From Longimicrobiales bacterium (GTDB lineage Bacteria; Gemmatimonadota; Gemmatimonadetes; Longimicrobiales; Gaopeijiaceae): 64,000 nt of DNA. The translations under genes were made by a program, and so were the position numbers. Positions 10,533 to 56,835 of this stretch are shown here, piece after piece (position 1 is the first letter of the stretch; each line of letters opens with the position of its first letter). Under the pieces are notes generated by a model, which was not told where the DNA came from, searched no databases, and saw only the letters and a program-made list of their open reading frames with translations. The DNA lies in the NCBI GenBank assembly GCA_958295645.1, contig OY282361.1, positions 2,570,501 to 2,634,500 on the forward strand. Reading direction: 5' to 3'.

Positions 10533-12266
10533 TTGAACGAAGCTCACGGCGGCGCCCTCGTGGATCTGCGCGCGACGGCGGAGCGCGCGCGGGAGTTGTG
10601 GGCGTCGGTCTTGGACTGGCGCTGGTCGTGGAGCTTGGACGAGCGTGCTCGCTGCGACTTGGAGGTGCTCGTCGAAGGCGGCTTCTCGCCCCTGCGCGGC
10701 TTCATGAATCGCGCCGACTACGAGAGCGTCTTGTCGAGAAAGCGACTGGCGGACGGGACCCTCTGGCCGGTGCCCGTGACGCTGGCGGTTCCGTGCGGCT
10801 TGGCCGAGAAGCTGTCCCGGGGGGACCTGCTCGCCCTGCGGGACGCCCAGGGCAACGTCCTCGCGATCCTCCACGTCGGCGACGTCTGGCAGCCCGACCT
10901 GCGTGCCGAGGCCCACGCCGTGTTCGCGAGCCGGGCGGGCGGGGCGGCGGCGAACCTCGTGGAGCACCCGTGGGCGGGCCGGTTGCTGAGAACGACGGAC
11001 ACGGCCTACGTCGGAGGGCGAATCGAGGCGCTCGGCTCGCAGATCCACTACGACTACCAGGAACTGCGCCGGAGCCCAGCCGAGTTGCGCTCGCTGTTCC
11101 AAGAACGAGGCTGGCGCCGGGTGGCGGGGTTCCAGACCCGCAACCCCATGCACCGCGTCCACTTGGCTCTGGTGAAGCGCGCGATCGAGGGGGCCGGCGC
11201 CAAGCTTCTCGTGCATCCCACCGTCGGCGTCGCGCCGCCGGGCGACATCGACCACTTCACGCGGGTGAGGTGCTACTTGGCGGCCATGACCGCTTTCTCT
11301 CGAGACGATGCCGTCCTGGCGCTGCTGCCGTTGGCCATGCGCATGGCGGGCCCGCGGGAGGCGGTCTGGCACGCGATCATCCGAAAGAACTACGGCTGCA
11401 CGCATTTCATCGTGGGCCGAGATCACGCGGGGCCGGGCCGGGACTCTTCGGGCGTGCCCTTCTTCGCCCCGGAGGAGGCGCGAGAGGCGATTCGGGAGCA
11501 CGAAGAAGAGCTGGGGGTCGGCCTGTGCGAGAGCGAAGAGATGGTCTACGTGCCCGAGCGCGGCAAGGCGCTGGCGCTGGGCGAAGTACCGGCTGGAGCA
11601 GCCACCAAGCAGCTTTCCGGCAGCGAGATGCGGCGGCGGTTGCGAGCAGGCGAGGCGCTCCCGGAGTGGTTCACGCTGCCGGCGGTGGCAGAGGAGCTGC
11701 ACCGCGCCTTTCCGCCTCGGCGCAAGCGCGGCTTCACGGTGTTCTTCACCGGCCTCTCGGGTGCGGGGAAGAGCACGATCGCGGGAGCGCTGATGGTCAA
11801 GTTGCGAGAGATCGCCGAGCGTCCCGTCACGCTCCTCGACGGCGACGTCATGCGCCGCCACCTGTCGAGCGAACTCGGCTTCTCGAAGAAGCACCGGGAC
11901 CTCAACATCCGCCGCACCGCGTTCGTGGCGAGCGAGATCACCAAGAACGGGGGAGCCGCCATATGCGCGCCCATCGCGCCCTACGCCGTTGCCCGCGAGG
12001 AAGCTCGCCGGATGGTCGAGGAGGCCGGCGGGTTCTTCCTCGTCTACGTCTCGACGCCCATCGAAGTTTGCGAACGGAGGGATCGCAAGGGACTGTACGC
12101 CCGCGCCCACGCCGGCATCATCGAGCAGTTCACCGGCGTCTCGGACCCGTACGAGACGCCGGACGACGCGGATATGGTCATCGACGGCACGGCCGTAACG
12201 GTGGCCGAGGCTGCGGAAACCATCGTCCGCCACATCCGCCGCCAGGGGTACATCGCGGAGGAATAG
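10533..12266 (+). CDS. Bifunctional sulfate adenylyltransferase/adenylylsulfate kinase
   Basis: A 577-residue fusion of ATP sulfurylase (about 1-385) and APS kinase (about 400-577), making APS and then PAPS from sulfate and ATP. The sulfurylase part has the conserved QTRNPMHRVH (from residue 201), HPTVGVAPPGDID and GRDHAGPG motifs. The kinase part has the P-loop GLSGAGKS (from residue 407), LLDGDVMRRHL and the GFSKKHRDLNIRR segment, so both active sites look intact. The start is TTG 10533, 7 nt after a GAGG. The fused form serves sulfate assimilation and PAPS supply for sulfotransferases. No separate CysD/CysN or CysH is in the window. It is convergent with the Wzi-like gene. Confidence 0.96.
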   Translation: MNEAHGGALVDLRATAERARELWASVLDWRWSWSLDERARCDLEVLVEGGFSPLRGFMNRADYESVLSRKRLADGTLWPVPVTLAVPCGLAEKLSRGDLLALRDAQGNVLAILHVGDVWQPDLRAEAHAVFASRAGGAAANLVEHPWAGRLLRTTDTAYVGGRIEALGSQIHYDYQELRRSPAELRSLFQERGWRRVAGFQTRNPMHRVHLALVKRAIEGAGAKLLVHPTVGVAPPGDIDHFTRVRCYLAAMTAFSRDDAVLALLPLAMRMAGPREAVWHAIIRKNYGCTHFIVGRDHAGPGRDSSGVPFFAPEEAREAIREHEEELGVGLCESEEMVYVPERGKALALGEVPAGAATKQLSGSEMRRRLRAGEALPEWFTLPAVAEELHRAFPPRRKRGFTVFFTGLSGAGKSTIAGALMVKLREIAERPVTLLDGDVMRRHLSSELGFSKKHRDLNIRRTAFVASEITKNGGAAICAPIAPYAVAREEARRMVEEAGGFFLVYVSTPIEVCERRDRKGLYARAHAGIIEQFTGVSDPYETPDDADMVIDGTAVTVAEAAETIVRHIRRQGYIAEE

Positions 12267-18434: not shown

Positions 18435-19784
18435 GTGACCATCACAGCCAGCCGCGCCCCGGCAGCCAGCCGCGCCCCAGCAGCCAAGCGCAACCTGGAA
18501 GTGGCGGCCGAGCACGACAAGCATCTCTTCGACTGCGTGCGCCCTCTGTACGACGAGCCCGTCGCCCTCGCGGAGGGATCGGGCTGCTGGGTCAAGGACT
18601 TCGACGGCCGCGAGTACCTGGACTTGTTTGCGGGCATCCTCACCGTCTCGCTCGGCCACTGCCATCCCGAAGTCGTGGCGGCGGTGCAGGACCAGGCCGC
18701 CCGGTTGGGGCACGTCTCCACGCTCTACGTCAACGAACCGCAGACGCGGGCGGCGCGGCGCTTGGCGGCGGTGGCTCCGGGCGCACTGAGCCGCACCTTC
18801 TTCCTCAACAGCGGCACCGAAGCCGTCGAGACGGCGTTGGCGGCCGCCCGGCTCCACACCGGACGCACCGAGATCGTGGCGCTCCGCCGGGCCTATCACG
18901 GGCGCACGAGCTTGGCGGCCTCCCTGACGGCCCAGGCGCCCTGGCGCGTGTTGCCCAGCACGGTCGCGGGCATCGTGCACGCGCTGTCGCCCTATCCGTA
19001 CCGAGCGTCCTTCGGCATGCGCTCGGACGAGGAGCTGGTGGCGCTCTACGCCCGCGACTTGGCCGAGGTGATCGAGACCACCACGAACGGACGCCCGGCC
19101 GCCTTCGTGGCCGAGACCGTGCAGGGCGCGGCGGGATACATCGTCCCTCCCCGGGGCTACTTCCAGCGGATGGCCGAAGTCGTTCGCTCCTACGGGGGGC
19201 TGTTCATCGCCGACGAAGTGCAGGCCGGCTTCGGGCGCACCGGCGATCACTGGTTCGGGATCGAGCACTGGGGCGTGCAACCGGACCTGATGATCACGGC
19301 CAAGGGCATCGCGGGCGGCATGCCGGTCGGCGCGGTCACGGCCACGCCGGAAATCGCGGCCAGCTGGCGGGGCAAGACGATCTCCACCTTCGGCGGCAAC
19401 CCGGTCTGCATGGCCGCGATGGACGCCACCCTGCGCGTCATGGAAGCGGAGAACGCGCCCGCCCGCGCCGGGGTCCGGGGCAGGCAGCTCCAGGCGGGTC
19501 TGCGCGCGCTCGCCGAGGAGCATCCTTGGATCGGCGACGTCCGGGGCCTGGGCCTCATGCAGGCGCTGGAGCTGGTGGAGGATCGGGACACCAAGGAACC
19601 GGCGCCGGAGTTGGCGGGCAAGCTGCTCCACGCGGCCAAGGACGAAGGGCTGCTGGTCGGCATGGGCGGCCTGGAAGGGCACGTGATCCGCCTGGGGCCC
19701 TCCCTGCTGATCTCGGAAGACGAGGTCGCGGAGGCGCTCGTTCGCCTGTCCCGGGCCTGCGCCGCGGTCTCGCGCAGGCGATGA
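18435..19784 (+). CDS. Class III aminotransferase, AGXT2/beta-alanine-pyruvate type
   Basis: A 449-residue fold-type I PLP enzyme. The PLP lysine is in MITAKGIAGGMPVGA; other motifs are NSGTEAVETAL, AYHGRT, FIADEVQAGFGRTG and STFGGNPVC, the last typical of the AGXT2 branch, which transaminates 3-aminoisobutyrate, beta-alanine or alanine with glyoxylate or pyruvate. Its position directly after mmsA supports an omega-amino-acid substrate. GTG 18435 is taken as start (GGAGG about 11 nt upstream); a longer frame to 18351 is possible. The first residues include a duplicated ASRAPA peptide from a DNA tandem repeat, outside the conserved fold. The stop overlaps the start of a small membrane protein gene. 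Confidence 0.9.
   Translation: MTITASRAPAASRAPAAKRNLEVAAEHDKHLFDCVRPLYDEPVALAEGSGCWVKDFDGREYLDLFAGILTVSLGHCHPEVVAAVQDQAARLGHVSTLYVNEPQTRAARRLAAVAPGALSRTFFLNSGTEAVETALAAARLHTGRTEIVALRRAYHGRTSLAASLTAQAPWRVLPSTVAGIVHALSPYPYRASFGMRSDEELVALYARDLAEVIETTTNGRPAAFVAETVQGAAGYIVPPRGYFQRMAEVVRSYGGLFIADEVQAGFGRTGDHWFGIEHWGVQPDLMITAKGIAGGMPVGAVTATPEIAASWRGKTISTFGGNPVCMAAMDATLRVMEAENAPARAGVRGRQLQAGLRALAEEHPWIGDVRGLGLMQALELVEDRDTKEPAPELAGKLLHAAKDEGLLVGMGGLEGHVIRLGPSLLISEDEVAEALVRLSRACAAVSRRR
18445..18480 (+). repeat. Two-copy 18-bp tandem repeat at the aminotransferase N-terminus
   Basis: CAGCCAGCCGCGCCCCGG at 18445-18462 is repeated at 18463-18480 with one change, and CAGCCA begins a third copy. It encodes a duplicated SRAPAA segment just after the GTG start and keeps the reading frame. 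It is a likely slippage hot-spot that would change only a disordered N-terminus. Confidence 0.9.
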
Positions 19785-55686: not shown

Positions 55687-56835
55687 ATGCGTGCGGTTCT
55701 GGCGGACGGCGCCGGCGGGCCGAGCGTCTTGCGGATGGGCACCGCGCCGCTGCCCGTGCCGTCGGCCGGCGAACTCTTGGTGCGGGTCGCCGCGTCGGGC
55801 GTCAACCGGGCCGACCTGCTCCAGCGCCGGGGGCTCTATCCGCCGCCGCCGGGCGCCTCCGAGCTGTTGGGCCTGGAGTTCGCGGGCGTGGTGGAGGCCG
55901 TCGGCTCGGCCGTGAGGCGGTGGGCGCCCGGGGAGCGGGTGATGGGGATCGTCGCGGGGGGCGGATACGCCGAGCAGGCGGTGATCCACGAAGACGTCGC
56001 GTTGCCGGTCCCCGCTGGAATGGACCTCGTGACGGCGGCCGCTGTTCCGGAGGTCTTCCTGACGGCCTTCGACGCGATGATGCTCCAAGCCGGACTGCGG
56101 GCAGGCGAGACGGTGCTCGTCCACGCGGTCGGGAGCGGCGTGGGGACGGCGGCGCTGCAACTGGCTCGGCGAGCCGGGGCGCGGACGATCGGGACCTCGC
56201 GCACGCCCGCGAAGCTGACCCGGGCGCAGGAGATGGGCCTCGACGTGGCCTTGGACGGCCGCGGGGACTGGCCGGAGGGCGTGCTGGAAGCAACATGAAG
56301 TCGCAGGCTCCTTGCTTCATGGCCTCCACGCCGCGGGGACTGGCCGGAGGGCGTGCTGGAAGCAACGGGCGGCCAGGGCGCGAGCGTCGTGGTGGACCTC
56401 GTCGGGGGCGCCTACCTCGCGGGCAACCAGCGGGCCTTGGCTTCGGGCGGGCGCCACGTGGTGGTCGGCGTGCCCGGGGGCAGCGTTGCCCAGATCGACC
56501 TGCGTGCCCTCATGACTCGCCGCGCTCGCTTGCTGGGTACCGTGTTGCGGGCTCGGGATCTGGCGGAAAAAGCGTTGCTGGCTCGCGAATTCTCGACCCG
56601 GGCGGCCCCCGGGTTCGTGGACGGCTCGTTGCGTCCGGTGCTGGACACGGCCTGTCCGCCGAACTGCGCGGCGGAGGCGCATGCCCGCATGGAGGACAAC
56701 AGAACCTTCGGCAAGATTGTCCTTGATTGGACCGGCGGCTCTGCGTTGGACTCGCCCGCGCCCGCGTCGCTGCCCGCGCCGGGGGCGCCCGCCGGCTCCA
56801 CTCGAAACCTGGAGAGACCTGCGCCATGGCGCTGA
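55687..56835 (+). pseudogene. NAD(P)H:quinone oxidoreductase, interrupted by a 72-bp insertion/duplication
   Basis: A zinc-independent medium-chain reductase of the quinone oxidoreductase (QOR/TP53I3-like) family: GVNRADLLQRRGLYPPPPG, LGLEFAGVVEAVG, PGERVMGIVAGGGYAEQ, the Rossmann VLVHAVGSGVGTAALQLA, and VVVDLVGGAYLAGNQ to AHARMEDNRTFGKIVLDW. The frame is broken at 56296-56298 (TGA) inside a 72-bp unit made of a 36-bp gene segment repeated at 56259-56294 and 56331-56366 around a foreign 36-bp spacer. Because 72 is a multiple of three, the frame resumes afterwards; without it the protein would have about 358 residues. The C-terminus runs about 35 Pro/Ala-rich residues past the usual end, into the next gene. 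ATG 55687 is the likely start. Confidence 0.85.
56259..56366 (+). repeat. 36-bp direct repeat flanking a 36-bp insert
   Basis: Two identical 36-bp copies, 56259-56294 and 56331-56366, both starting CCGCGGGGACTGG and ending GAAGCAAC, flank a 36-bp spacer (56295-56330). The spacer holds an imperfect hairpin (ATGAAG at its start, CTTCAT at 56315-56320). Read on the minus strand it encodes VEAMKQGACDFM, like the alpha4-beta5 part of response-regulator receiver domains. It places a stop codon in the quinone oxidoreductase. Confidence 0.9.

Follow-up and report, generated by a model that had tools for sequence, protein, structure and literature searches.

A 72-bp unit interrupting an oxidoreductase-like gene of a Longimicrobiales bacterium is very probably an off-target CRISPR spacer integration

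The window, the whole 64,000-nucleotide stretch of DNA that was analysed, contains an oxidoreductase-like gene broken by a 72-bp unit that is very probably the product of a single off-target spacer integration, for which we infer that the cell's own type I-G Cas1-Cas2, acting with Cas4, was the agent. An exact 37-bp repeat, GCCGCGGGGACTGGCCGGAGGGCGTGCTGGAAGCAAC, occupies positions 56258-56294 and recurs at 56330-56366 with 0 mismatches and a spacing of 72, enclosing a 35-bp insert; one shared G makes the split ambiguous, and 36 + 36 is an equally valid reading. The original prediction, that a segment of the gene is duplicated around a foreign spacer that adds an in-frame stop, thus holds, as a TGA from the insert ends the frame at 56298 after ...GVLEAT*. 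On the minus strand the insert translates as VEAMKQGACDFM. The heptamer GAAGCAA marks the ends of the two repeat copies and also occurs, as its reverse complement, within the insert. The features of this locus (site 1) are as follows:

55687-56298, plus strand: 5′ part of a zinc-type/quinone oxidoreductase-like gene, truncated by the insert's TGA, with 203 codons counted from ATG 55687 (the mechanical open reading frame begins upstream of this ATG, at TTG 55591); Pfam detects ADH_N (3.6e-16), before the unit, together with the first part of ADH_zinc_N
56258-56294, no strand: target-site duplication, copy 1, an exact 37-bp repeat equal in length to the array repeat
56295-56329, minus strand: captured DNA of 35 bp (36 bp with 56330), originating from an NtrC-family response-regulator gene
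56330-56366, no strand: target-site duplication, copy 2, an exact 37-bp repeat
56365-56835, plus strand: 3′ remainder of the oxidoreductase gene, in which the original frame resumes behind the 72-bp unit; Pfam ADH_zinc_N_2 (7e-16) over 56365-56832

The site is empty in relatives. In 29 of 29 aligned homologous loci neither the duplication nor the insert is present, and the protein is continuous across the junction; one of these loci (L066) has about 14 unrelated residues at the junction position.

The genome encodes a CRISPR-Cas system of type I-G, whose array (L005:10861-14920) adjoins the cas genes and consists of 56 repeats of 37 bp, 55 of them identical and the outermost carrying 7 mismatches. 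The 55 spacers range from 34 to 41 bp, the commonest length being 35 bp (21 spacers), followed by 36 bp (12), 37 bp (10), 38 bp (9), 34 bp (2) and 41 bp (1). Because its 37-bp repeat and 35-bp insert equal the repeat and spacer lengths of this array, the unit has the geometry of one Cas1-Cas2 spacer integration. Open reading frames are intact for Cas3, Csb1/Csb2-like proteins, Cas4, Cas1 and Cas2; family models name Cas1, Cas2, Cas4, a Cas3-extension protein and Cas3g, and the Csb1/Csb2 names are our reading of neighboring frames. Cas4 and Cas1 are encoded in separate overlapping frames (L005:15125-17161), and the Cas1 scores higher against the I-C model (329 bits) than against the I-G model (272 bits). 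The Cas1 frames of several relatives span 583-663 codons, a length sufficient for Cas4-Cas1 fusions.

The leader, which terminates in AGCA, would lie on the cas side of the array, because the degenerate repeat is the one most distant from the cas genes. By eye, the leader (minus strand beyond L005:14920) contains the 10-mer ATGAAGCAAG, which also occurs in the insert of site 1, and this sharing is probably due to chance. Within the array, pairs of spacers (L005:11441-11701; 11516/14516) are variants of a common protospacer in the same register, and exact spacer duplicates occur at 12180/12398 and 13128/13203, pointing to repeated sampling of related invaders and to duplication within the array. 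Just outside the far end of the array, a 52-bp segment (L005:10800-10851) is 94% identical to G000:C1:2156334-2156385. The array spacers had no match among phages, and viral contigs matched neither a recurrent spacer nor degenerate patterns built from two recurrent spacer motifs.

The origin of the insert could be traced within the same genome. A response-regulator origin had been proposed from the minus-strand reading, and a search of the genome with 56200-56420 located the corresponding gene, with 35 of 36 bases of the insert present at G000:C1:2462764-2462799 in an NtrC-family response regulator (Pfam Response_reg and Sigma54_activat) that reads VEAMKQGACDFI. The single difference, T at 56309 against C in the source, gives GGA for GGG and is synonymous in the source frame. 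The source gene lies about 164 kb from site 1 and is unrelated to the oxidoreductase. Besides itself, the query had one other match, of 88% over 32 bases to part of the target repeat (L003). A search for the site 1 pattern in genome_contigs returned no match.

Site 1 has counterparts elsewhere in the genome. We took 63 genome stretches and scanned the window, L006, L007 and 60 sample stretches for exact repeats, a total of 1,299,001 bases (1.30 Mb, with 2,500 masked) outside the array and under half of the genome. Only three non-tandem exact repeats, site 1 included, combined a repeat of 36-39 bp with a gap of 34-41 bp. The two further sites are:

L107:11721-11758 and 11793-11830 (G000:C1:1371721-1371830): site 2, a 38-bp repeat (36-38 bp given shared bases) around a 34-bp insert (34-36 bp)
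L179:19244-19280 and 19319-19355 (G000:C1:2339244-2339355): site 3, a 37-bp repeat around a 38-bp insert

The duplications at all three sites (37, 36-38 and 37 bp) thus match the 37-bp array repeat, and the inserts (35, 34-36 and 38 bp) fall within the 34-41 bp range of the array spacers. At site 2 the host is a McrBC-type restriction gene by Pfam, to which the unit adds 24 codons in frame and no stop, and the insert matches the cell's own hsp20 gene (G000:C1:81226-81260) at 94% of the aligned stretch, or 32 of 35 bases when the site is placed as 37 + 35. Judged by this hsp20 gene, the only close named relative is a Gemmatimonadetes metagenome-assembled genome (65% identity, L249), pointing to Gemmatimonadota as the probable phylum. 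The host frame of site 3 has no Pfam match and gains 25 codons; in a paralogue (G000:C1:1571572) the position of the unit is taken by a longer and different sequence. No source for the site 3 insert was found in the same genome or in 154 genomes of the order, nor did its degenerate pattern match in viral contigs. An insert could therefore be traced to another locus, the NtrC-type regulator or hsp20, at two of the three sites.

Of nine non-tandem repeats of at least 30 bp, compiled by hand, three fall within a size box defined from the array (repeat of 36-39 bp, insert of 34-41 bp). A flat model puts the probability of this at about 3e-5; the model is crude, and the limits of the box were drawn only once the first hits were known. 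The nine leave aside overlapping or low-complexity tandem rows (L109, L134, L165 and L177) and repeats shorter than 30 bp. In L005 outside the array, no repeats of at least 17 bp were found at a spacing of 30-150. A 41-bp repeat at L182:1184 with a spacing of 76 was excluded, being a tandem duplication that has diverged. Exact repeats of 38 bp (L131:17110-17204) and 37 bp (L163:18174-18260) also occur, their copies separated by just 19 and 13 bp; these are perhaps short-fragment integrations or plain duplications, and some repeats of such length may arise otherwise.

These lengths bear on the mechanism first put forward for the unit, template switching at the GAAGCAA microhomology. In such a templated repair event, a broken or stalled end would invade the regulator gene at GAAGCAA, copy about 35 bp, return and re-copy 37 bp of the oxidoreductase gene. 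The placement of GAAGCAA at both repeat ends and, inverted, inside the insert is what this route would leave, and the genome does have local duplications of other sizes. Templated repair predicts arbitrary lengths, however, and not the concentration of repeats within the array-set box; the two further loci share the geometry of site 1 but differ from it in sequence and donor, and an unsystematic look at sites 2 and 3 revealed no comparable shared word. We therefore regard template switching as improbable, although it is the strongest of the alternatives.

The imperfect match of the inserts to their sources, 1 of 36 and 3 of 35 bases differing beside duplications that are identical, is a point against spacer integration and is informative in two further respects. 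First, the original prediction had allowed that the unit might be a chimera of amplification or assembly, and the genome is represented as one contig, but a copy derived from reads of the same genome should not carry these mismatches. Since the flanking frames are intact and the geometry recurs at two more sites, an artifact is very doubtful, and more so than templated repair. Second, because the inserts are mismatched and the duplications are perfect, the donor is suggested to have been DNA of a close relative, or the source genes to have changed since. Across the 154 genomes of the order, the cell's own genome was the best donor, matching 97% of the aligned stretch for site 1 and 94% for site 2; the next-best donors for site 1 reached 85-91% over 32-41 bases, and for the site 2 insert no second donor was found among them.

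Insertion of a miniature mobile element, or the action of another integrase that makes a 37-bp target duplication, would likewise leave an insert between duplicated target sequences, which is a general signature of transposition. The inserts at the three sites are nonetheless unrelated and share no ends, two of them are pieces of ordinary genes, and the search of the genome recovered no family of related inserts, only the source gene and the 88% match to the target-repeat part. We know of no transposase with 37-bp duplications, and we consider this origin highly unlikely.

Off-target spacer integration would proceed as follows. A prespacer of about 35 bp would be cut from chromosomal DNA, in this case a response-regulator gene of the cell or of a close relative, and ligated into a chromosomal site, with the joints on the two strands staggered by 37 bp. 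Repair of the resulting gaps would then duplicate the 37 bp on either side, much as the first repeat is duplicated in a normal array; we infer this order of steps. The outcome would resemble a one-spacer array that lacks the cognate repeat and sits inside a broken gene, and it probably gives rise to no crRNA. That the unit instead serves as a functional neo-CRISPR or regulatory mini-array, producing a guide RNA against the response-regulator gene that its insert matches at 35 of 36 positions, is scarcely credible, since its flanking repeats differ from the CRISPR repeat such that processing and loading are not expected, and an active guide against the cell's own chromosome would be harmful.

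The target sequence at site 1 is a point against spacer integration. Its likeness to the CRISPR repeat, assessed in both orientations, at different offsets and with gaps, was at background level and was set aside: the ungapped comparison gave 14 of 37 matches, reached by 16% of background positions, and the best offset gave 16 of 35, reached by 3%. AGCA, the sequence in which the leader terminates, adjoins the edge of the target at site 2 (plus strand, in the 37 + 35 placement) and at site 3 (minus strand) and is absent at site 1; its occurrence at two or more of three sites has a chance probability of 2.6e-4, a value for a motif chosen afterwards and uncorrected for that choice. At site 1 the source has GTG on one flank and GCC/GGC on the opposite one, and at site 2 the flanks are AAG and TAC. 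A published assay of the Methanosarcina barkeri type I-G system used a GAA (= TTC) substrate (PMC10504553); neither flank of the site 1 source matches it, which also counts against our reading.

The inserts differ from the array spacers in their relation to the host genome. Two of the three stray inserts are near-self, each resembling a housekeeping gene of the cell, versus none of the 55 array spacers (hypergeometric probability 0.0018); no array spacer matched the genome above 38.3 bits, as compared to 61.7 and 55.4 bits for inserts 1 and 2. Judging from these matches, the excess may reflect selection, in that a self-derived spacer would be dangerous in a working array and should be silent, and hence tolerated, at a stray site because no cognate repeat is present there.

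We speculate more broadly that the CRISPR integrase of this lineage is a recurrent natural mutagen, a possibility that we hold tentatively and rate well below the reading of site 1 itself. The enzyme would paste unselected, often near-self fragments of 34-38 bp into ordinary genes, guided by little beyond an AGCA end resembling that of the leader and a ruler of 37 bp, either knocking out the gene or adding 24-25 in-frame codons (sites 2 and 3), and the stray sites would form a natural record of capture before selection against self-targeting. If so, they would reveal what the working array, with no near-self spacer among its 55, cannot. Several sites in one natural genome would mean that in nature Cas1-Cas2 acts as a mutagen on its own host, and the stray inserts, as an unselected sample of captured DNA, would make it testable how strongly adaptation discriminates self from non-self and to what extent later selection shapes the array. 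The signature, a 37-bp duplication with a 34-41 bp insert, is searchable in any genome that bears an array.

Surveys of relatives provide a limited control. In 400 kb each of two Cas1-negative relatives (G024 and G004), no non-tandem repeat of the size class was found; G004 does have 34-35 bp repeats at a spacing of 72, but these lie within a tandem array of the 18-bp type. In a relative that does encode Cas1 (G008, with a 72-77 bp array), 400 kb also contained no such site outside the array, a point against our reading. Three sites in 1.30 Mb against none in 0.8 Mb of DNA from Cas1-negative relatives is a small difference, and our argument is weighted on the geometry of the sites and not on their counts.

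What is known of off-target spacer integration comes chiefly from overexpression in the laboratory. In E. coli (type I-E) it was reportedly observed by Nivala, Shipman and Church (2018), who are also said to have noted putative naturally occurring examples in Yersinia pestis and Sulfolobus islandicus. As in their work, the sites described here have a spacer-sized insert with a repeat-length duplication outside the array. Unlike theirs, they belong to a type I-G rather than a type I-E system and occur in a natural genome, with three sites in under half of it, at least one broken gene, near-self inserts and, at site 1, a target that is not repeat-like. The phenomenon is therefore already known, and what is new is the type I-G setting, the presence of several sites in one natural genome, the disruption of a gene and the near-self inserts. 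PMC11788318 and PMC9456107 cite the 2018 study for off-target (non-canonical) spacer integration, and a literature search that covered few subscription journals turned up no natural type I-G case. Ectopic acquisition at Streptococcus thermophilus CRISPR3 also involves integrase activity away from the leader end, but at a repeat within the array and not, as at site 1, in an ordinary gene (PMC7999890). CreTA and other ectopic CRISPR repeats likewise have CRISPR-like geometry outside an array, but CreA has a repeat-like sequence and works with Cascade (PMC9458426), and the unit at site 1 has no cognate repeat; repeats like the cognate one, expected of a functional array or CreTA-like element, were not found there. 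Canonical type I-G adaptation by M. barkeri Cas4/1-Cas2 concerns a locus of the same subtype, from which the present one differs in that Cas4 and Cas1 occupy two overlapping but distinct frames and the I-C model gives Cas1 the higher score. For the M. barkeri system an imperfect fidelity of site choice in vitro is reported, with 80-90% of integrations correct on the leader side and 60-70% on the spacer side (PMC10504553).
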